A stretch of 64,000 nt of DNA, from the NCBI RefSeq assembly GCF_012272855.1, contig NZ_JAAXCQ010000004.1:1-64000 (forward strand), given 5' to 3'. Made by a program: the position numbers and the translations under genes. The notes beneath the pieces are model-generated. The model searched no databases and was not told the origin of the DNA. It worked only from the letters and a program-made list of their open reading frames with translations. Below, piece after piece: positions 8,739-60,304 of the stretch. The stretch is from Arenibacter sp. 6A1. Its GTDB lineage: Bacteria; Bacteroidota; Bacteroidia; Flavobacteriales; Flavobacteriaceae. Position 1 is the stretch's first letter. Each line of letters opens with the position of its first letter.

Positions 8739-9743
8739 TTACATACTACTTTCATAGCCTAATTCGTTATCACTTTTAACTCCCAGTTCCCAACAATCAA
8801 TATTGTAAAAAGTAGTTTTGGCTATGTTTTCCAGGGCTTCGCTAGTAATAAAGGCCTGGTGTGGCGTCAGCAGCACATTGGGAAAAGAGAGTAGTTTTTT
8901 CAATTGCTCATCTTTAATGCCCCCCTTGGAATGATCTTTAAAGAACACTCCTTTTTCCTTTTCATAAACATCTGTTGCATAGCCGCCAATTTGTCCATTT
9001 TCCAAGGCATCGATCAGAGCTTTGGTATCTACTACTGCTCCCCTAGCCGTATTGATCAATACCACCTTTTTTTTCATCATCGCCAACAAGCGGGCGTTTA
9101 TTAAATAATGGGTTTCGTATACCAAGGGTACATGCAAGCTGATGATGTCCGATTGGGAGCAGAGTTCTTCCATGGACACATAATGTAAATCATATTGGTT
9201 TGCCAAATAGGGATTGTGGATAGGATCATGGGCCAGGATAGAGCACCCAAAACCATGCATAATTTTTGCCATTACCGCGCCTATATTTCCGGTACCTACA
9301 ATCCCCACCTTTTTCTGATGAAGGTTAAATCCCATCAGATTGTCCTGAAGGAAATTATACTGCTGTACCTGGGTATTGGCCAAGATTATTTTTCTATTGA
9401 GCGCCAAAAGCAGCCCTACCGCGTGTTCGGCAATGGCATGTGGGGCATAACCGGGGGCATTGGCAACCTTTAAGCCTAAGCGCTTGGCCGACTTTACATG
9501 AATATTGTTGTGCCCGGTAGACCTGGTAGCGATGTATTTCACCCCTAAATCCCTCAGCTTTTCCAATACCAATAAAGAAGCATCGTCCCCAGAAAAGATA
9601 GCGATAGCCTCATGGCCCACTGCTTTGATTGCGGTATTGCTATCTAAAGCTTCTTGGGTATAGGTGACGGTATGCCCTCCTTTATTTGCTTTTTCTAAAT
9701 AGGGCAATTCAAACTTCTTTGAGCTATAGACCAGTACTTTCAT
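8739..9743 (-). CDS. ldhA: D-lactate dehydrogenase (2-hydroxyacid dehydrogenase)
   Basis: This 334-residue NAD-dependent enzyme reduces pyruvate to D-lactate in the cytoplasm to regenerate NAD+ without respiration. The Rossmann motif is GIVGTGNIG (residues 147-155). The catalytic Arg234 lies in NTARGAVVD, the acid residue is in VYEKE near 261, and the catalytic His295 lies in LLTPHQAF. The substrate loop RSTGHNN near 74-80 is the form seen in fermentative LdhA. Its ATG overlaps the stop of the upstream lipoprotein gene by 4 bp, so the two are translationally coupled. Its position in the stress block next to USPs, and pta-ackA later in the window, fits a low-oxygen role. Confidence 0.92.
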   Translation of the reverse strand: MKVLVYSSKKFELPYLEKANKGGHTVTYTQEALDSNTAIKAVGHEAIAIFSGDDASLLVLEKLRDLGVKYIATRSTGHNNIHVKSAKRLGLKVANAPGYAPHAIAEHAVGLLLALNRKIILANTQVQQYNFLQDNLMGFNLHQKKVGIVGTGNIGAVMAKIMHGFGCSILAHDPIHNPYLANQYDLHYVSMEELCSQSDIISLHVPLVYETHYLINARLLAMMKKKVVLINTARGAVVDTKALIDALENGQIGGYATDVYEKEKGVFFKDHSKGGIKDEQLKKLLSFPNVLLTPHQAFITSEALENIAKTTFYNIDCWELGVKSDNELGYESSM

Positions 9744-10381
9744 TCCTTTTGTTTTTTTCTAAAAATTAAATCCTGTTCTTCCATGGTTTGCACCACCAGT
9801 TTGACGTAACTGTCTATTGTTTTTTTTAAATCTAAAGGCTCCGTAATTTCAATGACGCCCCGCCAAATCAATTCGCGTTCCTTATCTACACAAATACAGT
9901 AGAGGGAGGTTTCCGTATGGTATAGGGTAAGCTCCTCCCCCCTTTTGCCCTTATAAAAAATATCTTGGTGTTGCATATAGTCGTCTCGAAAGGTTCCATA
10001 AAAATCGTCCAATTCGGCCAGCTTCTCGCCAAACCGCTTCTTGTCTTCAGCACTGACGACCTTGGTAAATAAAATAGCATCAAAATCCTTGTCCAATAAC
10101 TGTTGTTCTACTTGGGAGAGCTCATCTTCATTTCGTTGGCCGGAGGTAAAATCTACATCGAACAAATCTATACTCCGCATGGCTTCAATATCCCTTTTGG
10201 TAAATTCGCGCTGCATCTTTGTTTCATAGGCTATCCTTGCTTCTTCATCGTTGGTCATTCCAACAATAAGCACCTTATAGGCGGTAAATATGACGTGATC
10301 GGGGTTTTTCCAATTACTCTCTAATTGAATATTGGCACAGCCCATAAGGGATAATAAGCATAGCAGCAATATCTTTCTCAT
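9740..10381 (-). CDS. Predicted lipoprotein of unknown function
   Basis: A 213-residue protein from the start MRKILLLCLLSLMGC, which is a textbook lipoprotein signal with lipobox LMGC. An upstream ATG at 10411 would add ten residues that come from the conserved leader element, so I reject it. The mature part is alpha/beta-like with VILIVGM-type strands and acidic helices, and I do not recognise a family. It overlaps ldhA by 4 bp (ATGA), which predicts co-translation. The roughly 90-bp leader element shared with four other genes lies immediately upstream (about 10382-10475). Confidence 0.7.
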   Translation of the reverse strand: MRKILLLCLLSLMGCANIQLESNWKNPDHVIFTAYKVLIVGMTNDEEARIAYETKMQREFTKRDIEAMRSIDLFDVDFTSGQRNEDELSQVEQQLLDKDFDAILFTKVVSAEDKKRFGEKLAELDDFYGTFRDDYMQHQDIFYKGKRGEELTLYHTETSLYCICVDKERELIWRGVIEITEPLDLKKTIDSYVKLVVQTMEEQDLIFRKKQKE

Positions 10382-10475
10382 AGGCAGATATTTATTGTTG
10401 TTAACGGTCATAGGTACTTCGCATATCCTCGTTCATATATGGCAGCAGTTTTCGGTCATGCTCTTTTCATGCGTT
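10382..10475 (-). promoter_or_regulatory. Conserved 90-bp leader element, copy B
   Basis: In gene orientation it has heptamers ATGACCG at 10459-10453 and 10411-10405 (48 bp apart), then TTAACAACAATAAATA and the start codon. As an upstream ORF it begins MTENCCHI and then stops. No Crp/Fnr-type palindrome is close, so the element probably lies in a longer transcript from 10966 or beyond. Confidence 0.65.
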
Positions 10476-10531
10476 CATTTTAGGCACAAGAGGTCAATGA
10501 AGATTACTATAGCATGCGTATAAAGGGGGAG

Positions 10532-11124: not shown

Positions 11125-11136
11125 TGATATATATCA
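11125..11136 (-). promoter_or_regulatory. Crp/Fnr-type operator TGATATATATCA
   Basis: Exact match to TGAY-N4-RTCA, 158 bp before the ATG of the coiled-coil gene at 10966. The -7 box at the 23-nt spacing (11101-11094, TAAATTGT) is weak. Confidence 0.6.
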
Positions 11137-12705: not shown

Positions 12706-12721
12706 GTTAACTGCTTATTGT

Positions 12722-13010: not shown

Positions 13011-13040
13011 TATTGTTTATTCTTTTCAAAAAACTGCCTT

Positions 13041-14928: not shown

Positions 14929-15780
14929 TTAAGATTTATCATTTAGGACCAGGACAGGGATTTGGGAGTCGTTTCCAATTTCCTTTACCAAGGGGTGGGA
15001 AAATAACATCCCAAAAAACCGGTGTCTTTTATTGATAAAGGCTATCATATCGGACCCCCTACTTTCAATAAAGGAATAAATCCCTTCTTTTACCTTGGTC
15101 CCTGTTAAAACGTGTTCACTGTATTCCGTACCCGCTAAGATTGCCTCCAACAACTCCTTATTATTTTCTTGCGCAAAGGTCAGATGCTCTTCTTCCTCTA
15201 TATGGAGCACCCGAATAGGGGTTTTATACATTTGCGCCAGTTCTAGTAGATGTACCATTTCGCGGCGTTTGTAAACAGTTTTATAATCTGTAGGAAATAC
15301 TATTTCTCTAGGGGGTCCAAATAAAAAGTCGTCTGGAACGGCCAAGACGGGGCATTCGGATATTTTCTCCATCACTTGGACGGTATTGGTCCCAAAAACA
15401 ACCGACCTAGAGGCTGTAGCCCCCTTGGTCCCCATGATCACTAATTCGATATCTTTCTTACCTATGACCTCCCTGATCGCTTCTATAAGGGAATTAAAGG
15501 TCGATATGGTATGAAATTGATGCTTTGGGTTTACGACATGTAGTCCCACTATAGTCAATAGTTTTTTTAAACCATCGGCAGATTTTTTCTTGGCGGCCTC
15601 ATAGGAGGGCTCCCCAGGTTCGGGCACCATCATCTTATTGTCCAAAGAAAAAACATCGGAATGGAAAGTGTTCAGAAAATAAAACTCACAATTTTTATTT
15701 TTATACAGATCCAAGGCATACCGAATGGCATTCAAGGCATTTTTAGAAAAATCTGTGGGTATTAAAATTCTCTTGTCCAT
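14929..15780 (-). CDS. Universal stress protein, two UspA domains (USP 1)
   Basis: A 283-residue tandem UspA protein. Domain 1 starts RILIPTDFSKNALNAI and has the ATP-binding signature G-2x-G-9x-G-T at residues 117-131 (MGTKGATASRSVVFGT), so it probably binds ATP. Domain 2 (about 150-283) has the IVFPTDYKTVY strand but lacks the glycine signature. Two-domain ATP-binding USPs control growth arrest in mycobacteria. An operator with an ideal -7 box is 52 bp upstream, and the baeRF-like gene follows. Confidence 0.9.
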   Translation of the reverse strand: MDKRILIPTDFSKNALNAIRYALDLYKNKNCEFYFLNTFHSDVFSLDNKMMVPEPGEPSYEAAKKKSADGLKKLLTIVGLHVVNPKHQFHTISTFNSLIEAIREVIGKKDIELVIMGTKGATASRSVVFGTNTVQVMEKISECPVLAVPDDFLFGPPREIVFPTDYKTVYKRREMVHLLELAQMYKTPIRVLHIEEEEHLTFAQENNKELLEAILAGTEYSEHVLTGTKVKEGIYSFIESRGSDMIAFINKRHRFFGMLFSHPLVKEIGNDSQIPVLVLNDKS

Positions 15781-15832: not shown

Positions 15833-15844
15833 TGACAATTATCA
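15833..15844 (-). promoter_or_regulatory. Crp/Fnr-type operator TGACAATTATCA
   Basis: Exact consensus, 52 bp before the ATG of USP 1. The -7 box TAGTTTTA is at 15809-15802 after exactly 23 nt, which is class II geometry. Confidence 0.75.
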
Positions 15845-17010: not shown

Positions 17011-17850
17011 TTATTCGTGTAGGACCAGAAAGGGAATATGGGTATGGTAACTGATTTCTTTTACCGTTGGCCTAAAGAGGATTCGTTGTAAAAAATTAAG
17101 ATTTTTAGCCACCATAGCGATCATATTTATTCCATGGCTTTTTACATACTCCTGCAGGCTGGTTTCTATATTCTTTCCTTGAATTGCCTGAAAACTATGG
17201 GGTATTTCTTTTAAATAATCGTGTAAAATCTCCTTATTTTCATTCTGTTGATCGGACAGGGCTTCTTGCTTCCCAAAAACATAGACAATTCTGAGTGTGG
17301 CCTTATTCATATGAACCATTTTCGTTAAGGCATCTAGGACGTTTATACTGTAGTTGACACGGAAATCCGTAGCGAAGGCGATTTCTATGGGCTTTATATA
17401 GCGTGCATTCTTTGGCACTATCAACAAGGGGCATTTTACCTTTGTCATGACATCTCCGGTATTACTCCCCAGGGTGAACTTCCTTAAGCCGCTCCCGCCC
17501 TTGGTGCCCATAATGATTAGGTCTATTTTTTTGTCCACAATTTCCTTCCTAATAGATTCTACTAAAAAAGCATATACCACGTTGGTTACAAAACTGTGGT
17601 TAGCGTTGGGAGGGAGTCTCTTGATACGTTGTAGTACCAGCTGCATTTGCGACATACTTTCTTTGATAGCGATATCTTCCATGAGTCCGGCTGTCGTAAA
17701 TACCTCTTCATCATCTTCCATAATTTCCATGACAGAATCGATATGAAGGATATGAAATACACATTTGGTATTTTTAAACAATTCCATTCCATATTCCATG
17801 GCCTGCCATGCATTCTCAGAAAAATCTGTAGGTATCAATAGCTGTTTCAC
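17011..17850 (-). CDS. Universal stress protein, two UspA domains (USP 2)
   Basis: A 279-residue tandem UspA protein starting KQLLIPTDFSENAWQAM. The ATP signature is G115-x2-G118-x9-G128-S (MGTKGGSGLRKFTLGS) in domain 1. Domain 2 (about 150-279, IEIAFATDFRVNY) has no glycine signature. It shares the SENAW start pattern with USPs 3 and 4, so these are close paralogs. The operator at 18139-18150 has a good minus-strand -7 box at 18115-18108, which predicts a roughly 250-nt leader. The 3' end runs into a dispersed repeat. Confidence 0.9.
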   Translation of the reverse strand: MKQLLIPTDFSENAWQAMEYGMELFKNTKCVFHILHIDSVMEIMEDDEEVFTTAGLMEDIAIKESMSQMQLVLQRIKRLPPNANHSFVTNVVYAFLVESIRKEIVDKKIDLIIMGTKGGSGLRKFTLGSNTGDVMTKVKCPLLIVPKNARYIKPIEIAFATDFRVNYSINVLDALTKMVHMNKATLRIVYVFGKQEALSDQQNENKEILHDYLKEIPHSFQAIQGKNIETSLQEYVKSHGINMIAMVAKNLNFLQRILFRPTVKEISYHTHIPFLVLHE

Positions 17851-18138: not shown

Positions 18139-18150
18139 TGATTGTGGTCA
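18139..18150. promoter_or_regulatory. Bidirectional Crp/Fnr-type operator TGATTGTGGTCA
   Basis: Exact consensus. On the plus strand the -7 box TAATTTTA is at 18174-18181, and on the minus strand TATCTTTA is at 18115-18108; both are 23 nt from the palindrome. The plus target is the 84-residue gene at 18204 (53 bp away). The minus target is USP 2. Confidence 0.75.
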
Positions 18151-18203: not shown

Positions 18204-18458
18204 ATGTGGGCTGTTGCCAAAATACAGCATCTTAAAACCGATGCGGATAGACTTAAGATTATCCGAAACCTCAATAGAATACTCGACATAAGAGTTGTTG
18301 ATGTTGATGTGTTGGGAGGGAAATTATTTTTCCGTTATAAGAACAGCTTTGCTTTTGAACAGGCCAAACTAGAACTATATAGAATAGGATATCCTATGGT
18401 TACTTACACACGTTCGGGGGAACCGAACGAATCTACAGACCAATCTTATTGGACCTAA
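18204..18458 (+). CDS. Small HMA-fold-like protein without CxxC
   Basis: An 84-residue cytoplasmic protein. The middle part (NRILDIRVVDVDVLGGKLFF, then FEQAKLELYRIGYP) follows the beta-alpha-beta-beta-alpha-beta rhythm of heavy-metal-associated (HMA) domains. The metal-binding CxxC is absent, so copper binding of the usual kind is not expected. It is the first plus-strand gene in this stress block. It sits 53 bp from an operator with a correctly spaced -7 box and shares that operator with the divergent USP 2. Confidence 0.55.
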   Translation: MWAVAKIQHLKTDADRLKIIRNLNRILDIRVVDVDVLGGKLFFRYKNSFAFEQAKLELYRIGYPMVTYTRSGEPNESTDQSYWT

Positions 18459-18528: not shown

Positions 18529-19380
18529 TTACCCCATCTTAGCGGTATCTCTCAGGACCAAAAAGGGCACTTTGGTATAGAGTCCGATGGCATCTACATT
18601 TTGTTTTACCAGCAATTTTTCTAAAAACGTATGCGACCGATTCATCATCACCAAAAGGTCTAACTGATACAGGTCTATATATTCTTGAACGGCATTGGGC
18701 ATGTTATGGCCTTCCATTTCTTTAAACTGTGGCTTTACTGCTGCCAAATCTGCTTGCAGATACTCTTTGTTTTTTTGTTGAACAGGGGTTAAGCTTTTAG
18801 CTTCCAAGACATGCATGACAATAAGGGTTGCTTTATGCATAAGGCTTAGGTCTATGATGAATTGTAATTCGTCTTTCTTGTAATGGGTTAAATAATCTGA
18901 GGGAAATAAGATAGAGCCGATTTTTTCAAAATCATAGTAAGCGGGCACCAACAATACCGGTATCTTGGCCTTGCGAATGACCTGTACACTATTGGTGCCT
19001 AGAAATATTTCTTTGACCCCCGAAGCACCTTGGGTCCCCATAACAATAAGGTCGACTCCTTCGCTCTGGCACAGCTCCATAATTTCATCGGTCAAGGTGT
19101 TAAAGGCCGAGACCGTTTTAAACCGATGATTGGGATTGGGGTGATGTCTTTTAATGTCCTTCAGGATTTTCTCCAATCTGGCCACGGAATCATCTACTCC
19201 CGAATCGGGGATAGCGGTAAAATCTGGCCCTCCTATGAGATAATCGATTCTATAAAAAGCAGGTGTATAAACATGTAAAATATACAAGGTGCACTTTTCA
19301 TTTTTAAAAAACTGCAAGGCATAGGAAATGGCATTCCATGCATTTTCTGAAAAGTCGGTGGGCAAGACTATTTTTTTCAT
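18529..19380 (-). CDS. Universal stress protein, two UspA domains (USP 3)
   Basis: A 283-residue tandem UspA protein (KKIVLPTDFSENAWNAI). The ATP signature is G115-x2-G118-x9-G128-T (MGTQGASGVKEIFLGT). Domain 2 begins near 152 (ILFPSDYLTHY) and lacks the glycine motif. The 90-bp leader element lies directly before the start, and its intact upstream ORF overlaps this ATG as ATGA. No operator of its own is visible in the 312 bp to the VOC gene, so it may be read from the USP 4 promoter through the VOC gene. Confidence 0.9.
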   Translation of the reverse strand: MKKIVLPTDFSENAWNAISYALQFFKNEKCTLYILHVYTPAFYRIDYLIGGPDFTAIPDSGVDDSVARLEKILKDIKRHHPNPNHRFKTVSAFNTLTDEIMELCQSEGVDLIVMGTQGASGVKEIFLGTNSVQVIRKAKIPVLLVPAYYDFEKIGSILFPSDYLTHYKKDELQFIIDLSLMHKATLIVMHVLEAKSLTPVQQKNKEYLQADLAAVKPQFKEMEGHNMPNAVQEYIDLYQLDLLVMMNRSHTFLEKLLVKQNVDAIGLYTKVPFLVLRDTAKMG

Positions 19381-20187: not shown

Positions 20188-20199
20188 TGATTTTTATCA
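20188..20199 (-). promoter_or_regulatory. Crp/Fnr-type operator TGATTTTTATCA
   Basis: Exact consensus between USP 4 and the VOC gene. The -7 box TAATTTTA is at 20164-20157 after exactly 23 nt. It lies 129 bp before the VOC start. Confidence 0.75.
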
Positions 20200-20222: not shown

Positions 20223-21083
20223 TTAGCCATGAATTACTAATAGAGGTATGTTAGCGTAATAACTATTGTTTTCGGTCTTTGCTTTAAAGAATAGTTGTTG
20301 GAGAAAATTTACGTTTTTTCCGACTAACAAAATCATTTCTGCCCTTTGGGAATCGACAAAATCTTGAATGGCCGTGGTAATTTTTTTATGGGTGAAATCG
20401 TGAAAACTATGGGCCTCGGTAAAAGATTCTTCCAAATAATCGCGCAAATAGATTTTGTTGCTAGATTGGTATTCCGTAAAATTACCGTTGAGTTTAGACG
20501 CATTCATTATGCGCAGGGTAGATTGGCTAATGGTCAATATTTCGGCCATGGTCTTTAGGAACTCAAAGGAATAAAAGGTGGTAAAATCTGTTGGAAAAAC
20601 AATTTCCTGAGGGATCTTAAAAGTCACTTTTTCTGGAATTACCATGGTATTGCAGCGTACCTTGGTCAACACATCCCTGGTATTGCTTCCGATAATGGTC
20701 TCTGGGGATTGCTTTACATTAATCCCCTTAGCCCCCATGACAATAAGGTCTATTTTTAAATTGTCTATCCTGCCCCTTATCGCATCTACCAGGTTGCCAT
20801 GATCCTGAATGCTCCGGAAGTGGTGCTCTGTGTGTAATTGGTTCTGCCGTAATTGCTTTAACAATAGCCCCATTTTTACCGTGGAACAAGAAAAGTCCTT
20901 TAAAGCTACTCCTTGTCCTTGCCTATAAGTATCCAAAGAAAATTCTGCCGATAAAGGGGACTGCTCATCCTCTACATGCAATAAGAAAAAATTACAAGGC
21001 GTATGGGTATACAATACCACTATATACTGGATGGCATTCCAAGAATTTTCCGAAAAGTCTGTTGGTATTAATATGTTCTTCAT
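20223..21083 (-). CDS. Universal stress protein, two UspA domains (USP 4, altered ATP loop)
   Basis: A 286-residue tandem UspA protein from the start MKNILIPTDFSENSWNAI; the longer frame upstream runs through the promoter and operator and is rejected. The ATP loop reads MGAKGINVKQSPETIIGSNT, with eleven instead of nine residues between the second and third glycines, so ATP binding may be changed. Domain 2 starts at IVFPTDFTTFY. An ideal operator and an exact TACATTTG -7 box precede it. The VOC gene and USP 3 follow in the same direction. Confidence 0.9.
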   Translation of the reverse strand: MKNILIPTDFSENSWNAIQYIVVLYTHTPCNFFLLHVEDEQSPLSAEFSLDTYRQGQGVALKDFSCSTVKMGLLLKQLRQNQLHTEHHFRSIQDHGNLVDAIRGRIDNLKIDLIVMGAKGINVKQSPETIIGSNTRDVLTKVRCNTMVIPEKVTFKIPQEIVFPTDFTTFYSFEFLKTMAEILTISQSTLRIMNASKLNGNFTEYQSSNKIYLRDYLEESFTEAHSFHDFTHKKITTAIQDFVDSQRAEMILLVGKNVNFLQQLFFKAKTENNSYYANIPLLVIHG

Positions 21084-21411
21084 TAAAAACTGCTTCACGG
21101 TCAAATGTAGAACTATGGGTATTTCAAAAACATGATAAAAATCACTTTTCAAAAAAGTTTCTCTTCCCTTAGAAAAGACGAGCAGTAGAAAAATCTATTT
21201 ATAGGCCAATTCTGATATCTATATACTTAATTATAAATATTTTATCCGTGGAGAATTTATAAAAAATAAGCTACCCTTTTAGAGTACTCCGACAGCCATG
21301 GGTGTTAAATTTGTTATAAGCGGAAAAAAGACAGCTTTTCTTGTTTTCGGTCAAGGATCAATACCCTCATCTTAAGGCTTAGAAGAAGAGGGCATTGATA
21401 TAAGTAGCTCC
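21084..21411. other. Promoter region of USP 4 and 3' region of the Crp-type regulator
   Basis: About 330 bp that contain the USP 4 -7 box (21109-21102) and operator (21133-21144). The rest (21145-21411) is AT-rich with no open frame or repeat that I recognise. Confidence 0.5.
21133..21144 (-). promoter_or_regulatory. Crp/Fnr-type operator TGATAAAAATCA
   Basis: Exact consensus, 49 bp before the USP 4 ATG. The -7 box TACATTTG (a perfect TAnnTTTG) is at 21109-21102 after exactly 23 nt. It is the clearest example of the promoter class in this window. Confidence 0.8.
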
Positions 21412-22464
21412 TTAATTTACGTATTGAAGGGCTTTTAATTCTACAATTCTAATATTTCTACCTTCTATGGCAATCAACCCTTCTTTTTTAAATCCTGAAA
21501 GGGTTCTGATAAGGCTTTCGGTAGCAATCCCGGCTACACTGGCCAAATCTGTCCTAGAGATCTTTATGGGTTCTTCGGTATCCTTGCCTAATATTTCTGC
21601 AAACTGCAGCAGCGTCTGTGCCGTTTTTTTACGCACCGAACTATAGGCCATATGTAGTAACTGTCCCTTAATTTCCGTAAGGTTATCCGAAAACAACTCC
21701 ATCAATTCCATAGAAAGCGTATGGTTTTCTTCTAGAATGGATTTTAGGGTGTCCTTGGTGGTCCATGCCAACTGTACCGCTTCTATGACCGTGGCCGATT
21801 CTTGATAAGGAATATTGTCCAAAAATGAGGTAAACCCTAAAAAATCTTCCTTTTTATACAGAGAAGTGATCAATTCCTTCCCATCTTCATCCATTTTATG
21901 GCATTTCACAAGACCATTTAGAATCAAATAAATTCTATTGGAAGGTTCGCCCTCATTAAAAATCATTTCACCTTTCTTGTAGCTTGTCGTTTGCCCCTTT
22001 TCGCTAAAAAAAAGCTTTAATTGGGCAAGGTTGTTCAGCCTATCCCCGGTATGGGATGTTTCCGAGGCACCTTGGTTCCCCAATCTTGATAAAAGAATCG
22101 ATTTTGCCAAACGGCTCTCTACCGCACTGATAAGGTCTTCTTCCTCAAAAGGTTTTGTCAGATAGTCGTCGGCGCCCATATCCATTCCCTTTCTAATTTC
22201 CTTGTGTTCGGTTTTTGCCGATAAAAAAATAAAGGGAATATTTTTGGTGGCCTCCTTTTCCGAAATAGCTTGTAAAACACCGTATCCATTTACTTCGGGC
22301 ATCATAATATCGCATACAATAAGATCGGGCAGTAGTTCCATGGCAGTTTCTATACCTATTTTTCCATTGGAAGCCGTGGTTACCTCATATCCGGAGAGCT
22401 CTAATAGCTCGGCGGTATTTTCTCTTAAAGCGAGATCATCTTCTATTAAAAGTATTTTCTTCAT
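21412..22464 (-). CDS. Response regulator with Crp/Fnr output (receiver-cNMP_binding-HTH_Crp)
   Basis: A 350-residue fusion. Residues 1-120 are a complete receiver: D9-D10, phospho-acceptor Asp52 in IVCDIMMP, Ser82 and Lys104 in LTKPF. Residues about 145-265 are a Crp/Fnr sensor jelly roll (KKGEMIFNEGEPSNRIYLIL). Residues about 275-345 are the winged helix, with recognition helix GIATESLIRTLSGF. Its Glu and Arg align with E209 and R213 of FNR, which contact TGA half-sites, while the FNR Ser212 position is Ile. This fits the operator ATGAY-N4-RTCAK found across the window. No FNR cysteine cluster is visible. It overlaps the kinase gene upstream by 4 bp, so kinase and regulator are a cognate pair. 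Confidence 0.88.
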   Translation of the reverse strand: MKKILLIEDDLALRENTAELLELSGYEVTTASNGKIGIETAMELLPDLIVCDIMMPEVNGYGVLQAISEKEATKNIPFIFLSAKTEHKEIRKGMDMGADDYLTKPFEEEDLISAVESRLAKSILLSRLGNQGASETSHTGDRLNNLAQLKLFFSEKGQTTSYKKGEMIFNEGEPSNRIYLILNGLVKCHKMDEDGKELITSLYKKEDFLGFTSFLDNIPYQESATVIEAVQLAWTTKDTLKSILEENHTLSMELMELFSDNLTEIKGQLLHMAYSSVRKKTAQTLLQFAEILGKDTEEPIKISRTDLASVAGIATESLIRTLSGFKKEGLIAIEGRNIRIVELKALQYVN

Positions 22465-23984: not shown

Positions 23985-24423
23985 AATTCAAAGTTAATTT
24001 TTTTTACTGATTACAATCATGAATTACCCCATAGGAACGTCCTATTTTTATACAATATGGGCAGTTTTCTAATAAATCCGGCAAAAAAATAATCAATATA
24101 CAAAATTAGGCCTTCTTTATTTTATAAAACTACTATCATAGTATTTTTGTAAGAGGGTGATTGCTTTTTAAAACCCCATTTATATGCCTCAAACAATGAC
24201 TGTACATGCCAGTTTATGCATTTTAGGGCATTCTTATAGTGTTCATTACTAGATATATACAAAGAATCCACGGTACATTAGGCAGTAATACCGATCATTT
24301 AACTTTGAAAGAAAAAAAGAAATAAAAAAGGAAGAAAAATTAAATTTAATTGGAGGAAACAGCTTCATTTTTAGAAGTCCCATGTGTTGCTACCAAGGTG
24401 TTCCCTCCAAAAAAGATAAGGGT
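23985..24423. other. Divergent region between the kinase and deoD
   Basis: About 440 bp with an operator (24008-24019) near the kinase start and a plus-strand -7 box (24043-24050). No reliable open frame is seen. GGAGG at about 24351 precedes an in-frame ATG at 24382 that would add 14 residues to DeoD. The long leader could hide a small RNA. Confidence 0.45.
24008..24019. promoter_or_regulatory. Crp/Fnr-type operator TGATTACAATCA at the regulator operon
   Basis: Exact consensus. On the minus strand it sits only 23 bp before the kinase ATG, too close for activation but suitable for repression. On the plus strand a -7 box TATTTTTA is at 24043-24050 after exactly 23 nt, directing a transcript toward deoD. 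Confidence 0.65.
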
Positions 24424-25994: not shown

Positions 25995-26133
25995 AACGTC
26001 AGTTTTTAGCTTTCTTTCCAAGAATCTAGTTGATAAGAGCCTTACATCCTTGTTATTCAGGGTGCATTTTCGGGGAAATTGAAAAATAAATGCTTCGTTC
26101 GTTAAAAATAGCAGGAAGAATTAACATTGAAAA

Positions 26134-26145
26134 TGACCAATATCA
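26134..26145. promoter_or_regulatory. Bidirectional Crp/Fnr-type operator TGACCAATATCA
   Basis: Exact consensus. The minus-strand -7 box TATTTTTA is at 26110-26103 (USP 5), and the plus-strand box CACCTTTA, weaker, is at 26169-26176 (DUF2267). Both are 23 nt from the palindrome. Confidence 0.75.
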
Positions 26146-38902: not shown

Positions 38903-38914
38903 TGACCCACATCA
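38903..38914. promoter_or_regulatory. Bidirectional Crp/Fnr-type operator TGACCCACATCA
   Basis: Exact consensus between the ATPase and hsp20 genes. The -7 boxes are TATTTTTG at 38879-38872 (minus) and TAATTTTC at 38938-38945 (plus), both exactly 23 nt away. The arrangement predicts joint activation of pump and chaperone. Confidence 0.8.
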
Positions 38915-41781: not shown

Positions 41782-41793
41782 TGATTTTTATCA
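41782..41793 (-). promoter_or_regulatory. Crp/Fnr-type operator TGATTTTTATCA
   Basis: Exact consensus. The -7 box TAGTTTTG (perfect) is at 41758-41751 after exactly 23 nt, driving the YtxH gene 75 bp away. On the plus side no box is found at the matching place, so control of the gene at 41900 is uncertain. Confidence 0.8.
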
Positions 41794-42873: not shown

Positions 42874-42885
42874 TGATTAAAGTCA
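42874..42885 (-). promoter_or_regulatory. Crp/Fnr-type operator TGATTAAAGTCA
   Basis: Exact consensus, the same 12-mer as at 33593. The -7 box TAGTTTTG is at 42850-42843 after exactly 23 nt. It is 74 bp before the coiled-coil gene. Confidence 0.8.
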
Positions 42886-44199: not shown

Positions 44200-44249
44200 G
44201 CTTATTTTTTAATGTAAAGAGCCTATCTACAGCCTCTTAATTATTTTTT

Positions 44250-46601: not shown

Positions 46602-46613
46602 TGACAAAAGTCA
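46602..46613 (-). promoter_or_regulatory. Crp/Fnr-type operator TGACAAAAGTCA
   Basis: Exact consensus, 13 bp beyond the stop of pfkB paralog 2 and 258 bp before the pta ATG. The -7 box TACCTTCG is at 46578-46571 after exactly 23 nt. The intervening 46344-46570 would be leader RNA. Confidence 0.65.
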
Positions 46614-46625: not shown

Positions 46626-47582
46626 TTAGAAGTTTTTATTCGTTTCTTTTTCTCGGAGCTGTATCCACTCATAAATACCTTCAACATCTTCTTTTTTACA
46701 CAGTTTTGTCCCCGGCCGCATGGTGGTGGCTGTTCCACAGGCCACGCCATATTGCGCCATTTCCAAAGGGGTAGCCCCCTGAAGTGAACTACATACCATC
46801 CCGGCAACCATACTATCCCCGGCCCCAATAATACTTTGCTGGGAAACCACTACCCCCGGAATGTACGCTGTGTTTTGGGCACTCACCAAAAGGGCTCCTT
46901 TGGCCCCCAGGGAAACCACCATAAACTCACAGGAATGTCGGTTTATAAAGTTCTTGGCCAAAGGTTCAAGTTCAGAATAGGAAATATAAGATACCCCGCA
47001 GAGCTCACTGAGTTCGGCCAGATTGGGTTTCAACAGGTATATTCTCCCTTTAATGGCTTCCAACAAGGCCTTTCCTTTGGTATCTAGGACCAGTTTAGCT
47101 CCTTTTGCTTCGGCAATATTGGCTAGTTGTAGATAAAAATCGTCGGGAATCCCTGTGGTTAATTTTCCACTAGCTACTAAGTAATCGCCCGGGTTTAAAA
47201 TACCCTCCACCGCTGTTAAACACGCCTTCCATTCGGCTTCCTTCACAAAAGGTCCGGGCATACTAAATCTGTAGTCCAATTGGGTCACGGTATCTTTTAC
47301 GGCAAAATTTTCACGGGTATGACTTGCAATGTGTACCGTTTTTATTGGAATGCCAGCGCTACCCAATAAGTTTGCTAAATGGGCCCCTGTTCTGCCGCCT
47401 TCTAAAAATAAGGCCACCGAACTACCCCCTAAATTGTGAATGGCCCTGGATACATTAATTCCACCTCCTCCTGCATGATAAAAAGCTTGTGTGGCTGCTA
47501 AGTTCGTATCGGGTCTTAGACCGACAACAGTAGTGTTTTTATCTACCAAAGGGTTTACCGTCAGTGTTATTATTTTTTGCAT
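46626..47582 (-). CDS. 1-phosphofructokinase-family hexose kinase (PfkB type), paralog 2
   Basis: A 318-residue PfkB-family kinase. I start at MQKIITLTVNPLVDKNTTVV, because it aligns with paralog 1; a frame 90 bp longer covers the intergenic region. Motifs are YHAGGGGINVSRAIHNLGGS and IIGAGDSMVAGMVC with the catalytic Asp. Sequence similarity to 32585-33544 runs over the full length, so these are recent paralogs. It is in line with the phosphoribosyltransferase and hydrolase genes upstream and pta-ackA downstream. Confidence 0.9.
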   Translation of the reverse strand: MQKIITLTVNPLVDKNTTVVGLRPDTNLAATQAFYHAGGGGINVSRAIHNLGGSSVALFLEGGRTGAHLANLLGSAGIPIKTVHIASHTRENFAVKDTVTQLDYRFSMPGPFVKEAEWKACLTAVEGILNPGDYLVASGKLTTGIPDDFYLQLANIAEAKGAKLVLDTKGKALLEAIKGRIYLLKPNLAELSELCGVSYISYSELEPLAKNFINRHSCEFMVVSLGAKGALLVSAQNTAYIPGVVVSQQSIIGAGDSMVAGMVCSSLQGATPLEMAQYGVACGTATTMRPGTKLCKKEDVEGIYEWIQLREKETNKNF

Positions 47583-47697
47583 CTCTTTGGTACCATCAAA
47601 AACCATATTGGATTTGTTTTTAAATCGGATAAGGTTCCTCTTAAAATAATTAGCTGCTTCTATTAATACCAATTATGTCCCAATTAAAACAAGGAGC

Positions 47698-48318
47698 CTA
47701 ATTGCTTTCTTCTAAAATACGGATGGCCTCGGCATCGCTTAGCTGATGGAAATTTTCATAAAACTGCCCCACAGCCTTAAAGATGACCGGTGTTTCCAAG
47801 CAAATCACTTCCTCCAATTCTGGCAGCCCTTTTAATTTTCGAATTGCCGAGGAAGGTGCAACGGGAATGGCTACTATAATCTTTTTTGGCTTTTGATGAC
47901 TTACCAAGGCTACGGTAACCAACATGGTATTTCCTGTAGCAATACCGTCATCTACGATCACCACCGTTTTACCTGCCAATGATTGTGGCCTTATATTTTT
48001 ATAATATTGAAGATATCGCGCCTTCATTTTTTGCCGTAATCGGGCCGTTTCCTCTTTTATGTATTCTTCGGATACTCCTCCAACATCGCCAAGAACACTA
48101 TAATCCATGCTCACGGCTCCTATGGCATATTCCCTATTGCTAGGATGTCCTATTTTCTTGGAGAAGACAATGTTCAGTGGGGCGTCCAAGGATTTTGCGA
48201 TAATGGCCCCCAGAGGAAGTCCGCCTCTAGGCACTGCCAAAACCAAGACATCTTCATTTTTCAGCGGTAGTAGTTTTTCTGCCAACTGAATTCCTGCATC
48301 TATTCTGTCCTTAAACAT
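47698..48318 (-). CDS. Phosphoribosyltransferase-domain protein
   Basis: A 206-residue type I phosphoribosyltransferase fold with the PRPP loop in VVIVDDGIATGNTMLVT and a flexible-loop region AIGAVSMDYS. The nucleobase hood is atypical, so the substrate is unknown. It follows the alpha/beta hydrolase gene by 12 bp. In Mycobacterium the DosR-controlled Rv0571c is a single protein joining this type of PRT to this type of hydrolase, so the pair here looks like the unfused version. Expression is probably from the operator at 49023. Confidence 0.88.
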   Translation of the reverse strand: MFKDRIDAGIQLAEKLLPLKNEDVLVLAVPRGGLPLGAIIAKSLDAPLNIVFSKKIGHPSNREYAIGAVSMDYSVLGDVGGVSEEYIKEETARLRQKMKARYLQYYKNIRPQSLAGKTVVIVDDGIATGNTMLVTVALVSHQKPKKIIVAIPVAPSSAIRKLKGLPELEEVICLETPVIFKAVGQFYENFHQLSDAEAIRILEESN

Positions 48319-48330
48319 AAGGTCTATTTT

Positions 48331-48969
48331 TTAGGTGAGATACTCTTTAAACCAAGCCGTTGAAAGGGTTGCTACTTCTTCTAATTTTCCTGGCTCCTCG
48401 AAAAGATGGGAGGCTTCGGGAACTATTACCAATTGATGATCTCCTCTTAGTTCCGAGAATGCCTGTTGATTAAGGGTTATGACCTCACGGTCCCAGCCCC
48501 CTACAATAAAAAGCGTAGGTGACTCTACGCGCGATAATACTGCCATGGCCAAATCTGGCCGCCCGCCCCTGGATACCACCGCTTGGATGTCGCTCCCTAA
48601 AAAAGCACTGGCCCTTAATGCCGATGCTGCACCAGTACTCGCACCAAAATACCCCATTGCCATGGTTTTGGTATGCTCTTGGTTTTTAACCCAATGCGTA
48701 GCCGCTATCAATCTTTTGGCCAATAAATTTATATTGAACCTATTTTCATAGACCAGATCCTCTTCTGCCGTAAGCAGGTCCAGTAAAAGTGTGGCCAAGC
48801 CGTGGTCCTGTAAAACCTTCGCAACATAATTGTTGCGCGGACTTAGCCTACTACTACCACTGCCATGAGAAAATATAACGATACCAACGGCCCCCTCCGG
48901 AATCGTTAAATTCCCAAGTAGACTAAGGTCTTGCATTTTAATGGATATGGCGGCTTGGGAACTAGGCAT
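48331..48969 (-). CDS. Alpha/beta hydrolase, dienelactone-hydrolase type
   Basis: A 212-residue cytoplasmic hydrolase. The oxyanion region is VIFSHGSGSSRLS, the nucleophile elbow GYFGASTGAA (G-x-S-x-G with Ser as nucleophile), the acid is probably Asp in GGWDREVI, and the catalytic His is in EASHLFEEP. The substrate is unknown. It is the first gene of a minus-strand cluster hydrolase-PRT-pfkB and sits 53 bp from the operator at 49023. Confidence 0.9.
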   Translation of the reverse strand: MPSSQAAISIKMQDLSLLGNLTIPEGAVGIVIFSHGSGSSRLSPRNNYVAKVLQDHGLATLLLDLLTAEEDLVYENRFNINLLAKRLIAATHWVKNQEHTKTMAMGYFGASTGAASALRASAFLGSDIQAVVSRGGRPDLAMAVLSRVESPTLFIVGGWDREVITLNQQAFSELRGDHQLVIVPEASHLFEEPGKLEEVATLSTAWFKEYLT

Positions 48970-49022: not shown

Positions 49023-49034
49023 TGATTTTCATCA
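49023..49034. promoter_or_regulatory. Crp/Fnr-type operator TGATTTTCATCA
   Basis: Exact consensus, 53 bp before the hydrolase ATG. The -7 box is poor (TACTTTAT at 48998-48991, spacing 24). On the plus side no box fits for the exporter operon. Confidence 0.65.
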
Positions 49035-53321: not shown

Positions 53322-53333
53322 TGATCGTTATCA
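53322..53333 (-). promoter_or_regulatory. Crp/Fnr-type operator TGATCGTTATCA
   Basis: Exact consensus. The -7 box TAAATTTC is at 53298-53291 after exactly 23 nt. It is 54 bp before the coiled-coil gene (member 4). Confidence 0.78.
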
Positions 53334-53793: not shown

Positions 53794-54639
53794 CTAAAGT
53801 CCAGAAACGTTATAGCTCAAGAGGGGCACAGGGGTATTTCTTTCCATTTTTTTCACCAGATCGGATTGAAAGTACGTTTGAAAAAATCCACTGTCCTTTC
53901 TTTCTAACATTGCCAATAACCCCGCATCCGCATCAATCAGATACCGTATCAAGGCCTCCAATATATTTTCTGAATATAATAAATGAAACTCCAATTTAGA
54001 ATAGACTACTTTCTGTTGTAGGATTTCTTTAAACCAATCCATTTGGTCCTGACCATTCTTTTCTTTCTGGGAAGTAATATGAACAACATTTAGCTGGGCG
54101 TCGAATAAACCAGCAATTTGGACAAATTTTCGAATCGCATAAATATCGGCCTCTTCAAAATCCGTCGCATACACCATGGTTTTCAGGCTTTCTAAGGTAC
54201 TATTCTCTGGCACGGCCAAGACCGGACAAGGAGTTTTTTTTATAAGGCCTTCCGCAGTGGTACCGAATAACATTTCCTTTAATATCCGTTCCCCTTTGGT
54301 TCCCACTACTATCAAATCGGCCCCAAGTTCAACTGCCTTTTCCCGAATCCCGTCTACTACAGAACTTTCTTCATGTACTTCCCATTGTAATTGTTCCCTA
54401 TTTGTTTCACTCTTCATCTGTGCCAAACAAAAGTCCATTAATTTATTTTTATGTTCCGTATACAAGCGTTGTTCTTTTTTGATATAGGAAATAGATACCG
54501 TACTGGCCAAGGATAATGGCATATCAAAAACATGTAACATGACCATTTGGGCATTGCTTTTTTTTGCCAATGCTTCGGCAAAGTGCAGGGCAGTAACTGA
54601 ATTTTGGGAATAATCCGTAGCGTACAATATGGTTTTCAT
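53794..54639 (-). CDS. Universal stress protein, two UspA domains (USP 6)
   Basis: A 281-residue tandem UspA protein (KTILYATDYSQNSVTAL). The ATP signature is G113-x2-G116-x9-G126-T (VGTKGERILKEMLFGT) in domain 1. Domain 2 (about 150-281, TMVYATDFEEADIYAIRKFV) lacks it. It differs from USPs 1-4 in starting ATDYSQNS. It has both an upstream operator (54801) and the 90-bp leader element with an intact upstream ORF directly before the start. Confidence 0.9.
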   Translation of the reverse strand: MKTILYATDYSQNSVTALHFAEALAKKSNAQMVMLHVFDMPLSLASTVSISYIKKEQRLYTEHKNKLMDFCLAQMKSETNREQLQWEVHEESSVVDGIREKAVELGADLIVVGTKGERILKEMLFGTTAEGLIKKTPCPVLAVPENSTLESLKTMVYATDFEEADIYAIRKFVQIAGLFDAQLNVVHITSQKEKNGQDQMDWFKEILQQKVVYSKLEFHLLYSENILEALIRYLIDADAGLLAMLERKDSGFFQTYFQSDLVKKMERNTPVPLLSYNVSGL

Positions 54640-54800: not shown

Positions 54801-54812
54801 TGATATTCATCA
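54801..54812 (-). promoter_or_regulatory. Crp/Fnr-type operator TGATATTCATCA
   Basis: Exact consensus, 161 bp before the USP 6 ATG. The -7 box is weaker (TAGTTTCA at 54777-54770, spacing 23). The distance matches that of the other leader-bearing gene at 10966 (158 bp). Confidence 0.7.
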
Positions 54813-54836
54813 GTAGCTTAAAATTTGCCCCCTATA

Positions 54837-54848
54837 TGATTTGTGTCA
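54837..54848 (+). promoter_or_regulatory. Crp/Fnr-type operator TGATTTGTGTCA
   Basis: Exact consensus, 36 bp (start to start) from the previous operator. The plus-strand -7 box TAGATTTA is at 54872-54879 after exactly 23 nt, 160 bp before the gene at 55009. The two operators serve the divergent units separately. Confidence 0.75.
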
Positions 54849-56391: not shown

Positions 56392-56400
56392 TACTGCCTT

Positions 56401-57669: not shown

Positions 57670-58665
57670 CTATTGCCCTTCCTGCGCTTGTTCCGCTTCT
57701 TTTTTTTGCTTTCTTGCTAATTTCCTAAAATACCTACGGGTAAGGAAACTGTGTTTTAGAGCTTCCATATTTTCATTAAAACGCCGGCTGCCCTCATCGA
57801 CATTCTTCATGGTGTTTTCTAGATGATGTACCAAAGTGGTATCCTGGGACAAATAATGAATGGCCCCTCTCCCCTCTTTTACATCACTTATAACCACATT
57901 CAGCTCCTTCAGCATTTCTTCTACTTCTGCACCCGAGGTTTCCAAATGATCTATAATACTACGTATTTTTTGGGCCGATAGGGTATCGCTTAAGAAAAGT
58001 CCAGCGGTACTTTCTTCAAAATTCATACTCCCTATGATATTGTTTAAGCCTGCAATAGCAGTAATTGCCGTATTGCTGCTATGTTTAAGATTGGTAATGG
58101 TTTGCTGAAGATCCTTGGCCATAAGGGTATCGTTCAGAAGTCTCCCCAAGGTGCCATTTCCCTTTACCATGGACTCTGACACCTTTAATAAATTGGAGGT
58201 GAGCATGGCGGCATTTTCTGTGGTGACATTTAAGGTACGGAGCATATCTTGGGTAGCTATTCTACTATAAGACCTAAGTTCATCATTTGGCGCTATTAAA
58301 GGAGCAGTGCCTTCTCCAGGGATGATATTGACTATCATACTCCCTACAAAACCATCAGATCCTATCGTTACCACGGCATCTTTCCTGATATATTGAAGCA
58401 TTTTTTCATCAATGACCATACGAATCCTGATACTGGTATCATTTTCCATTTCAATGCTCTTTACAGTACCTACATTGATTCCGGAAAAACGAACGTTGTT
58501 CCCTAATTGAAGTCCGTTTACATTATTTACGACCGTATTGATGGCGAATGTTTTATTAAAAAGACTCTGATTATTCCCTATTAAGTAAGCGGCCACTACT
58601 ATTAAAATAGTTCCTATGATCACAAAAACCCCTAGTTTTAATTTTTCAGATGCTGTCTTTCCCAT
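57670..58665 (-). CDS. mlaD: MlaD-like MCE-domain protein
   Basis: A 331-residue protein with one N-terminal membrane helix (about 10-28) and an MCE domain (about 36-115, VNNVNGLQLGNNVRFSGINV, then IRMVIDEKMLQYIRKDAVVT). A long helical C-terminal part follows, ending in charged residues. It is the periplasmic lipid-binding part of an Mla-type transporter between inner and outer membrane. It starts 6 bp after the ATPase gene. The gene symbol follows family usage; Bacteroidota Mla substrates are not settled. Confidence 0.88.
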   Translation of the reverse strand: MGKTASEKLKLGVFVIIGTILIVVAAYLIGNNQSLFNKTFAINTVVNNVNGLQLGNNVRFSGINVGTVKSIEMENDTSIRIRMVIDEKMLQYIRKDAVVTIGSDGFVGSMIVNIIPGEGTAPLIAPNDELRSYSRIATQDMLRTLNVTTENAAMLTSNLLKVSESMVKGNGTLGRLLNDTLMAKDLQQTITNLKHSSNTAITAIAGLNNIIGSMNFEESTAGLFLSDTLSAQKIRSIIDHLETSGAEVEEMLKELNVVISDVKEGRGAIHYLSQDTTLVHHLENTMKNVDEGSRRFNENMEALKHSFLTRRYFRKLARKQKKEAEQAQEGQ

Positions 58666-58671
58666 GACTGT

Positions 58672-59451
58672 TTATTTAAAAAAGGCTTTCACCTTTGGGT
58701 CGTTTATCTGTATTAACTCATCAAATGTTCCTTCTATATAATTTACTCCGTCAATTAACAATATCATACGATCTGCAATCACCCGGGCACAATCCACATC
58801 GTGGGTAATAATTAAGGAGGAGGTCTCGTATTTCTTTTGAATCCGCAACATCAATTCTATAATTTCTTTAGAGGTAATAGGGTCTAACCCACTAGTAGGC
58901 TCATCGTATAATATTATTTTAGGTTGTATGATCAGGGTTCTTGCCAAGGCCACCCTTCGTTTCATCCCGCCCGATAATTCTTCGGGCATAATATCGACCG
59001 TATGGGCCAAACCAACGTTTTCCAAGGCTTCCATTACCAAGGAATTGGTATCTAGGTTATTCCCCATTTTTTTTTGATGCCGTCGTAGGGGGAATTCTAA
59101 ATTTTCGCGAACGGTCATTGAATCGTACAGGGCACTCCCCTGAAAAAGAAACCCTATTTCGGCCCGTAATTCATCAAGCACCTTTCGGTTCAGTTTGGCC
59201 ACTTCCTTCCCCATTACCATGATACTGCCACTATCGGCTTGCATAAGGCCTACCAAACACTTGATCATTACAGATTTCCCGGAGCCGGACTTGCCCATAA
59301 TGACCAGGTTTTCTCCTTTGTAGAGTTTCATATTAAATCCGTTCAGGACATGATTATCTCCAAAACTTTTTCGTAAATCCTGTATCGCAATGACGGCCTC
59401 GGGCATCGCCGTGGATTGGTGTACGGAGGTTATGTTTTGCGTAGCTTTCAT
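58672..59451 (-). CDS. mlaF: MlaF-like ABC ATPase
   Basis: A 259-residue ATPase: Walker A VIMGKSGSGKSVMIKCLVGL, Q-loop FLFQGSALYDSMTVRENLEF, signature ELSGGMKRRVALARTL, Walker B ILYDEPTSGLDP and H-loop IITHDVDCA. The SALYDSMTV segment is typical of MlaF. It overlaps mlaE by 4 bp (ATGA), so the proteins are made together. Confidence 0.93.
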   Translation of the reverse strand: MKATQNITSVHQSTAMPEAVIAIQDLRKSFGDNHVLNGFNMKLYKGENLVIMGKSGSGKSVMIKCLVGLMQADSGSIMVMGKEVAKLNRKVLDELRAEIGFLFQGSALYDSMTVRENLEFPLRRHQKKMGNNLDTNSLVMEALENVGLAHTVDIMPEELSGGMKRRVALARTLIIQPKIILYDEPTSGLDPITSKEIIELMLRIQKKYETSSLIITHDVDCARVIADRMILLIDGVNYIEGTFDELIQINDPKVKAFFK

Positions 59452-60230
59452 AGGTCATAAAAAATATCGGAAATAAAAACGGCAATAAAATCCAGTATAA
59501 AAATGAACATAGAAGCCATAACAACGGCTGTATTGGCCGCTACCCCTACGCCTACCGTACCTTTCTTACAATTATACCCTTTAAAACAACCGACCAGACC
59601 AATAGCCATTCCAAAGAAAAATGACTTAATTATTGCGGGAACAAGATCGCCAAAACTCAAGGCATCGAATACTTGGTTAAAATAGAGTTGAAAAGAAACG
59701 TTCCCTTTAAAATTTTCGACCAAAAAAGAACCGTACAAAGCCAGTACATCGCCAAAAATGGTCAAAATCGGAATCATCATGGTCGTAGCGATGATTCTGG
59801 TAACCACCAGATATTTAAAAGGATTGGTACCAGAGACTTCCATGGCATCAATTTGTTCGGTAACGCGCATAGAGCCCAATTCTGCTCCCATTCCAGAGGC
59901 AATACGCCCGGCACAAATCAACGCAACGATAACGGGACCTATTTCTCTTATTATAGATATCCCCACCATATTGGGCATCCAAGACACTGCTCCAAATTCT
60001 TCCAGAGTGGGCCTGGTCTGTAAGGTTAAAACTAAACCTATAATAAAGCCTGTAATCCCTACCAATGGCAGGGAACGGTTTCCGACGTTATAACACTGGT
60101 GCAAAAGCTCCGAAAATTCGAATGGGGGCTTTACGGCTTCTCTTAAAAAGCGGCCAAAGAAAAAGGACAACTCCCCTATTTGTTCAAAGAATTGCCGTAT
60201 CCCTACCACTATGTGAGACCCCATAACCAT
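59448..60230 (-). CDS. mlaE: MlaE-like permease
   Basis: A 260-residue inner-membrane MlaE-family permease with five to six hydrophobic segments. Family marks are GNRSLPLVGITGFIIGLVLT, IIREIGPVIVALICAGRIAS and MGAELGSMRVTEQIDAMEVS. It is the first gene of an mlaEFD operon. An operator with a perfect TATATTTG box is 62 bp upstream, so lipid transport to the outer membrane may be part of the same stress response. Confidence 0.93.
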   Translation of the reverse strand: MVMGSHIVVGIRQFFEQIGELSFFFGRFLREAVKPPFEFSELLHQCYNVGNRSLPLVGITGFIIGLVLTLQTRPTLEEFGAVSWMPNMVGISIIREIGPVIVALICAGRIASGMGAELGSMRVTEQIDAMEVSGTNPFKYLVVTRIIATTMMIPILTIFGDVLALYGSFLVENFKGNVSFQLYFNQVFDALSFGDLVPAIIKSFFFGMAIGLVGCFKGYNCKKGTVGVGVAANTAVVMASMFIFILDFIAVFISDIFYDL

Positions 60231-60292
60231 ACACCATCTGCCGTATTAGAGTTATTACACTCAAATATAACCTAGTCAGGTAGAGATACATA

Positions 60293-60304
60293 TGACCTAC
60301 ATCA
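60293..60304 (-). promoter_or_regulatory. Crp/Fnr-type operator TGACCTACATCA
   Basis: Exact consensus. The -7 box TATATTTG (perfect) is at 60269-60262 after exactly 23 nt, 62 bp before mlaE. Confidence 0.8.

Follow-up and report, generated by a model that had tools for sequence, protein, structure and literature searches.

Introduction

The dormancy regulon of Mycobacterium tuberculosis is governed by DosR (DevR), a LuxR-type response regulator that is served by GAF-heme sensor kinases and acts at an operator unlike the one described below. In the FixL-FixJ-FixK cascade of rhizobia, a heme-PAS kinase acts on a receiver regulator, and a transcriptional step leads on to FixK. The cascade is summarised in the available portions of PMC9104464 and PMC11841059. 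The lxa locus of Burkholderia cenocepacia, as portrayed in the accessible parts of PMC6127331 and PMC9104464, holds six universal stress protein (USP) genes, a heat shock protein and a phosphofructokinase, is induced by low oxygen and is proposed to be under FixK/Anr-type control. Here we analyse 64 kb of contig C46 (hereafter the window) of the flavobacterium Arenibacter sp. 6A1, whose genome of 4.67 Mb is 99.9 percent complete. The window contains a block of USP and associated genes together with a gene pair for a sensor histidine kinase and a response regulator in which a receiver is joined to a Crp/Fnr module. We put at roughly three in four the probability that this block is a low-oxygen survival regulon, run by a FixL-type kinase and by the receiver-Crp/Fnr fusion as a class II activator.

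A shared operator at a fixed distance from the promoter

The operator search started from palindromic words in intergenic DNA, which gave TGAT-N4-ATCA, and this was generalised to TGAYNNNNRTCA (TGAY-N4-RTCA). The pattern has 18 copies in the window, where shuffling predicts 2.5 (standard deviation 1.6; maximum 6; 0 of 100 shuffles reached 18), and all 18 copies lie outside open reading frames (ORFs) of at least 80 aa in a mechanical gene call. Seventeen of them fall between 11125 and 60304 (Table 1), a distribution that supports the shared operator supposed in a first-pass annotation of this DNA and the probable co-regulation of the genes as one block. Fourteen of these 17 operators have, in one direction or both, a -7 box with 5 or more of 6 positions matching precisely at the class II distance. 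At 11125, 49023 and 54801 the box reaches only 4/6, so the promoters of the ldhA group, of the dienelactone-type hydrolase (DLH) gene and of USP6 are weaker. Across the whole genome the pattern alone is weak, with 238 matches against 203 for the reversed control, yet it is dense in the window. With the full geometry, operator + N23 + TANNTTT, the genome keeps 31 sites and the control a single one; of the 31, 15 are in the window, 1 is in the rest of C46, and 5, 4, 2, 2, 1 and 1 are on contigs C2, C23, C11, C6, C1 and C56.

For comparison with relatives, up to 20 kb was taken on either side of 35 orthologous regulators (1.35 Mb), selected mainly by similarity from the 65 other genomes that have a full-length regulator; contig ends truncate four of these 35 neighbourhoods. 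In the full set of neighbourhoods 354 operators were counted, as compared with 45 and 66 matches for two control patterns, which understate the background (see below). When the window and the C2 region described below are included, the operator stands 50-75 bases before the start codon in 241 of 398 operator-gene pairs. With both directions looked at, a -7 box (5 or more of the 6 positions of TAnnTTTG, which we take to be the Bacteroidota consensus) starts at exactly 29.5 bases from the centre of the operator in 262 instances at 351 sites, whereas other offsets have a median of 8 and three control patterns (43, 65 and 70 sites) reach at most 5. This spacing played no part in site selection, and the operator to -7 spacing shows no peak in 66 unrelated loci (mixed bacteria, 1.1 Mb). 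Class II sites of Crp/Fnr activators lie at about -41, and the 29.5-base spacing places the operator near this position. The same offset dominates at ten loci of a second Flavobacteriaceae clade (61). Ten loci whose regulators are more distant (38-43 percent identity; L052-L061) show two peaks, at offsets of 51.5 (11) and 29.5 (9); a separation of 22 bases would agree with class I and class II sites.

The fusion regulator and its kinase

By Pfam, the regulator gene at 21412-22464, which overlaps the kinase gene, encodes a receiver, a Crp-type sensor fold and a Crp helix-turn-helix. Pfam thus confirmed the receiver-Crp/Fnr regulator with its PAS kinase that had been read from the letters at first pass. 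It also confirmed, each in its place, the other families named there: six USPs, two PfkB kinases, Hsp20, a P2-type ATPase (P2-ATPase), an M50-CBS protease, a phosphoribosyltransferase (PRT) by a DLH-type hydrolase, ldhA and pta-ackA. No PDB chain covers both halves of the fusion among the 60 of 177 matches listed. Full-length orthologues occur in 65 of 148 other genomes of a family sample (one genome per genus; at most 14 first-look candidates scored per genome), and in a phylum sample (5 candidates scored per genome; own genome included) 59 of 392 genomes and 39 of 179 genera have a match at E<=1e-60; with so few candidates scored, these counts may be low. Among the matches listed, the closest named relatives of the regulator come from genera such as Aquimarina and Salinimicrobium, which we take to be Flavobacteriaceae. 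Only the first 14 of 80 loci listed, a list otherwise taken up by receiver motifs, hold full-length relatives, and a kinase was found at 13 of these 14 (none in L057).

Glu316 and Arg320 of the recognition helix are invariant in both regulator alignments. The cysteines of an FNR-type cluster are absent from the fusion, the sole invariant cysteine in the two alignments being Cys51 in the receiver. Also missing is the arginine of the cAMP phosphate site, presumably that of PRTSSAT in Mycobacterium CRP, which aligns with PYQESAT here. A structure model of the full-length fusion (pTM 0.40) left the domain arrangement too uncertain for use, and its 50 listed fold matches repeat the Crp assignment. 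A second receiver-Crp copy lies on C2 (15000-31000), beside USPs and five TGAT..ATCA promoters.

The first PAS domain of the kinase (PAS1) finds its best PDB sequence matches in FixL (5e-15) and DosP (4e-13), and heme domains of FixL or DosP/EcDos account for the best 13 of 20 matches. In the fold comparison, the 25 best hits of its AlphaFold model (pLDDT 82) are FixL, DosP/EcDos or one other heme PAS. The second PAS of the kinase (3 PDB matches, none FixL) is unlike PAS1, as is a PAS of the neighbouring kinase, for which the best 60 of 161 matches are led by histidine kinase PAS and LOV chains. His66, aligned with the histidine that we take to be the FixL heme ligand, is kept in 36 of 37 kinases and is one of six invariant positions in all 14 kinases of a wider set, whose identity to the window's kinase goes down to 21 percent. 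Judged by sequence and fold, PAS1 is a putative heme and oxygen binder. In G111, G125 and G038 (L178-L181, L206-L207), the orthologous FixL-like kinase carries an extra LOV motif, NCRFLQ, which suggests a joint light and oxygen input. An operator lies near the kinase in 27 of the 35 neighbourhoods. The genes behind the operator next to the kinase also include a similarity cluster of 18 (L129:2361-2768 and 17 similar genes, ~136 aa), whose representative matches no Pfam family above the cut-off.

Genes behind the promoter

The kinase, the regulator and the USPs form the conserved core, with the kinase in 35/35 neighbourhoods and USPs in 34/35. USPs make up 87 of the 206 genes behind full promoters in these neighbourhoods. 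Other recurrent clusters, each named by Pfam from one representative, are a ccoN-FixO fusion (10 loci), cytochrome c (8) and hemN (7). A ccoN-type oxidase, hemN and cytochrome c, named by eye, stand behind the same promoter in the window's genome. The inducing condition had first been given as hypoxia, nitric oxide (NO) or energy loss; the promoter common to the cbb3 oxidase, hemN and cytochrome c makes a low-oxygen role likely. In line with this model, oxygen limitation raises the cbb3 oxidase and heme synthesis enzymes in Flavobacterium psychrophilum, according to the available part of PMC9723704, where the words FNR and Crp are absent from the text.

Proposed mechanism and alternative explanations

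In the mechanism that we favour, the FixL-type heme PAS would sense the loss of oxygen and the kinase would phosphorylate the receiver of the fusion. The phosphorylated fusion would bind the FNR/FixK-type half-site pair TGAY-N4-RTCA centred near -41 and act as a class II activator, and low oxygen would induce the regulon. Its targets would be the USPs, Hsp20, the PfkB kinases, pta-ackA and transporters and, elsewhere in the genome, the cbb3 oxidase, hemN and cytochrome c. A four-cysteine FNR-like paralogue appears to share the box, and the regulon probably joins two oxygen inputs.

Several results weigh against this model. The 66 unrelated loci contain 104 matches to the operator pattern against 34 and 39 for the controls, so the controls understate the background. 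An operator at most 350 bases upstream of the neighbourhood orthologues was found for Hsp20 (10/11), MlaE (6/6), P2-ATPase (4/6), M50-CBS (3/6), PfkB1 (2/3), pta (1/2) and DLH (1/2), and on the unfavourable side for UPRT (2/6), PfkB2 (1/3), ldhA (0/10), ackA (0/2) and PRT (0/2), all of these counts coming from operator-rich neighbourhoods and being given without a chance rate; some genes that have no operator of their own would be later genes of operons. Searched genome-wide, 16 of 65 genomes have M50-CBS, and in 7 of these 16 an operator precedes the gene by 57-63 bases; DLH is present in 13 of 65, 5 of them with an operator within 260 bases, and PRT adjoins DLH at 13/13 orthologous loci. In the kinase, Arg86, which aligns with what we take to be the distal arginine of FixL, is found in 30 of 37 sequences and is variable in the wider set, and the PAS of the C2-copy kinase has no heme-ligand histidine (a cysteine in the alignment). 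Where there is an operator at the kinase (28 of 37 loci), it is directed away from the gene in 25 of 28, and positive autoregulation of the kinase-regulator pair, which the 27 of 35 neighbourhoods with an operator near the kinase had suggested, was rejected on this ground; the site may repress the pair or simply neighbour it. Seventeen genomes without the fusion hold at least 15 sites, and a profile search in which every first-look candidate was scored found no full-length fusion in them; 15 of the 17 have a strong stand-alone Crp-type match (E below 1e-42).

These last genomes bring in the FNR-like protein, a separate gene product of C23 whose four cysteines are invariant in the 30 loci read of 92. 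The box could be mainly its own, and the fusion would then be a paralogue within the island with a minor role or other targets. Orthologues of the FNR-like protein are present in 91 of 148 other family genomes, an operator precedes its gene in 28 of the 30 loci, and a USP gene follows it in the window's genome. The composition of the sites is also the same: own-genome sites had hinted at a preference of the fusion for TGAT..ATCA and of the FNR-like protein for TGAC..GTCA, an idea rejected at 55/121 against 27/60 TGAT..ATCA sites in the two groups (Fisher p = 1.0; the second group being the sites listed for 4 genomes). The median number of full-geometry sites is, however, 28 in the 36 genomes that carry both regulators, 16 in the 29 that carry the fusion and have no FNR-like hit at E<=1e-40, 11 in the 55 that carry the FNR-like protein alone and 1.5 in the 28 that carry neither, on a reversed-pattern background with means of 1.1-1.3, so the operators follow both regulators. 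Among the genomes with neither, G048 and G147 have 31 and 18 sites yet are incomplete (82 and 73 percent). G138 has 11 sites but also 7 control sites. Operators are dense around the fusion gene, and ten loci of a more distant paralogue are likewise rich in them, with 85 in 182 kb. A minor role for the fusion is, in our judgement, quite unlikely. The two proteins seem to read the same box, and with the box shared, single promoters are not assignable to one regulator, a further point against giving the whole regulon to the fusion. Control by the fusion, as proposed in the first-pass annotation, keeps the density of operators around its gene in its favour and has to admit the FNR-like paralogue as another candidate regulator, while the co-occurrence of operator and regulators in related genomes, which the annotation had named as a check, is borne out by the site medians.

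Two other explanations concern the signal and the origin of the block. The kinase might sense something other than oxygen, such as redox state, NO or another cofactor, and the regulon would then be a general energy-stress set: sequence is a poor guide to the ligand of a PAS domain, Arg86 is not conserved throughout, and the functions of USPs and PfkB fit general energy loss. Against this, FixL and DosP are the closest solved relatives of PAS1, the ligand histidine is among its few invariant positions, and cbb3 and hemN share the promoter; we regard another signal as unlikely, although it deserves weight. Exchange or common descent with the mycobacterial DosR module, which would make the two regulons homologous, is highly improbable. 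The overlap with DosR at the family level covers USPs, PfkB, Hsp20, M50 protease and phosphoribosyltransferase, as far as the DosR gene table is available (PMC5309233), but the types of regulator and sensor differ and the DosR-like extras are patchy among relatives, with PRT, DLH, pta, ackA, PfkB, M50-CBS, P2-ATPase and Hsp20 lying near the regulator in a minority of genera (2 to 11 of 35). A search for the DosR box in the window (core GGGACTNNAGTCCC, up to 3 mismatches) gave 7 matches against 15.8 expected. We take this core to be that of DosR, and likewise take chain 3loq to be archaeal and 3cis and 2jax to be the Mycobacterium USP Rv2623/TB31.7; USP5 matches 3loq (5e-16) far better than 3cis and 2jax (3e-5 to 4e-5). 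The likeness to DosR noted at first pass thus holds for the gene families and fails for the box, the LuxR-type output and the GAF kinase. The argument that the content was too specific for a generic stress set is weakened by the lxa locus, which the accessible part of PMC6127331 already compares with the DosR regulon. The DosR label is better replaced by that of a probable low-oxygen USP regulon with a FixL-type kinase and a receiver-Crp activator, shared with an FNR-like paralogue.

Gene content of the window

The features of the block are collected in Table 1. The six USP genes are all on the minus strand, and the Usp domain is not peculiar to the window, with 30 matches genome-wide and further groups on contigs C2, C11 and C23. 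A large PAS/GAF kinase at 3863-7405 (GAF domains by Pfam) adjoins the block and is unlinked to the fusion regulator in relatives (0/35 neighbourhoods). A PAS domain of this kinase has matches to LOV domains but lacks the NCRFLQ motif, and a LOV photoreceptor was rejected. The product of 13041-13889, with weak ATP-cone and Mrr matches, is found in 18 of the 35 regulator neighbourhoods. Two Flavo-1 RNAs (Rfam RF01705) lie at 2860-2941 and 35359-35441. Intergenic repeats around AAATGCAARTCGTTGCATTT occur at 8496-8682, 12684-13021, 16519, 27876, 31668 and 31894, some of them in tandem with 108-base spacing, and possibly represent a mobile palindromic element.

Table 1. Genes and operators of the block, in window coordinates
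Feature	Position	Strand	Basis or remark
D-2-hydroxyacid dehydrogenase (ldhA, D-lactate type)	8739..9743	-	Pfam; D-lactate-type NCBIfam models match below cut-off
Operator	11125..11136	-	Upstream of 10532-10966, 9740-10411 and ldhA 8739-9743 (putative operon); -7 box 4/6
USP1	14929..15780	-	Pfam
Operator of USP1	15833..15844	-	Pattern and full geometry
USP2	17011..17850	-	Pfam
Two-way operator, USP2 side and small ORF 18204-18458	18139..18150		Pattern and full geometry
Small ORF (84 aa) behind two-way operator	18204..18458	+	By-eye resemblance to 78-aa ORF behind C2 operator
USP3	18529..19380	-	Pfam
Operator of glyoxalase-fold gene 19693-20187	20188..20199	-	Pattern and full geometry
USP4	20223..21152	-	Pfam; Usp domain from residue 24, start codon probably internal
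Operator of USP4	21133..21144	-	-7 box 6/6
Fusion response regulator: receiver, cNMP-binding, HTH_Crp_2	21412..22464	-	Pfam
Sensor histidine kinase: FixL-like PAS (residues ~12-130), second PAS, HisKA, HATPase	22461..23984	-	Pfam
Operator beside kinase gene	24008..24019		Promoter geometry directed away from kinase
USP5	25155..26021	-	Pfam
Operator of USP5	26134..26145	-	Full geometry
PfkB kinase 1 (PfkB1), 1-PFK subfamily	32585..33544	-	Domain models
Operator of PfkB1 (-7 box 6/6) and, weaker (4/6), of M50-CBS	33593..33604		Full geometry
M50 protease with CBS domain	33796..34881	+	Pfam
UPRTase-like protein	35549..36247		Pfam
P2-type cation ATPase	36273..38783	-	Pfam
Two-way operator, P2-ATPase and Hsp20	38903..38914		Full geometry
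Hsp20 / alpha-crystallin	38986..39420	+	Pfam
Operator of YtxH-like gene 41377-41706	41782..41793	-	Full geometry
Operator of 42413-42799	42874..42885	-	Full geometry
pta-ackA	43006..46343	-	Pfam; ackA 43006-44199, pta 44250-46343
Operator upstream of pta	46602..46613	-	-7 box 5/6
PfkB2, PRT and DLH-type hydrolase, likely operon	46626..48969	-	PfkB2 46626-47672, PRT 47698-48318, DLH 48331-48969
Operator upstream of DLH gene	49023..49034	-	-7 box 4/6
Operator of 52869-53273	53322..53333	-	Full geometry
USP6	53794..54639	-	Pfam
Two operators between USP6 and 55230	54801..54848		54801 weak; 54837 with -7 box 5/6
MlaE, ABC ATPase, MlaD lipid transporter	57670..60230	-	Pfam
Operator of MlaE operon	60293..60304	-	-7 box 6/6

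Relation to described systems

Beyond Arenibacter, we lean slightly towards a widespread oxygen switch of the Bacteroidota, in which a heme-PAS kinase would phosphorylate a Crp/Fnr protein directly, phosphate would replace cAMP or an Fe-S cluster as the trigger, and FixL-FixJ-FixK would be collapsed into two genes; in some genera the LOV motif of the same kinase would join light to oxygen. Bacteroidota are common where oxygen varies, and the literature searched, with subscription journals mostly outside it, contains no description of a low-oxygen regulator of this kind or of a receiver-Crp regulator of a USP regulon in this phylum. With a defined operator at a fixed promoter spacing, a regulon of many members becomes readable from sequence. 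The recurring USP/Hsp20/PfkB low-oxygen module would gain a further type of regulator in this system, which also offers a compact model for how a receiver could gate the Crp/Fnr fold.

The DosR/DevR regulon has in common with the block the families compared above and a P-type ATPase; for this comparison we take Rv1997 to be CtpF and Rv0571c to have a fused architecture. The output domain is of NarL/LuxR type in DosR and of cNMP_binding and HTH_Crp_2 type behind the receiver here, the sensors are GAF-heme proteins there and the cognate kinase 22461-23984 has PAS domains only, and the operators differ; for these reasons the system is not DosR, and the likeness is a family-level resemblance of gene content, not of system. 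The lxa locus resembles it in layout, as one chromosomal block that also has six USPs, a heat shock protein and a phosphofructokinase. It belongs to another phylum and has other partner genes, and the parts of its descriptions available mention no receiver-Crp fusion. The OsdR regulon of Streptomyces coelicolor, as far as given in the available part of PMC5069765, likewise has USP genes around a dormancy-linked two-component system, but with a DevR-like regulator and a G+C-rich box. The NmpRSTU regulon of Myxococcus xanthus, according to the accessible part of PMC11841059, shares a heme-sensor kinase, a USP, a P-type ATPase, the cbb3 oxidase and hemN, and differs in its globin-type sensor, multi-step relay and NtrC-like regulator. 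FNR/Anr regulons share the box core (TTGATCTCGATCAA, from the portion of PMC9104464 available) and cbb3 and USP targets; there the sensing is done by an Fe-S cluster inside the Crp/Fnr protein, whereas here a receiver is present. With FixL-FixJ-FixK the system shares the FixL-type PAS with its ligand histidine, by sequence and by fold, the receiver, the Crp/Fnr output, the core of a TTGAT-N4-ATCAA-type box, here at the class II position, and the cbb3 oxidase as a target. FixJ has a LuxR-type output, whereas here receiver and Crp output are one protein with no transcriptional step to FixK, and the targets are dominated by USPs, unlike those of the rhizobial cascade. The predicted wiring comes closest to that of FixL-FixJ-FixK, except that the receiver is carried by a FixK-type output.

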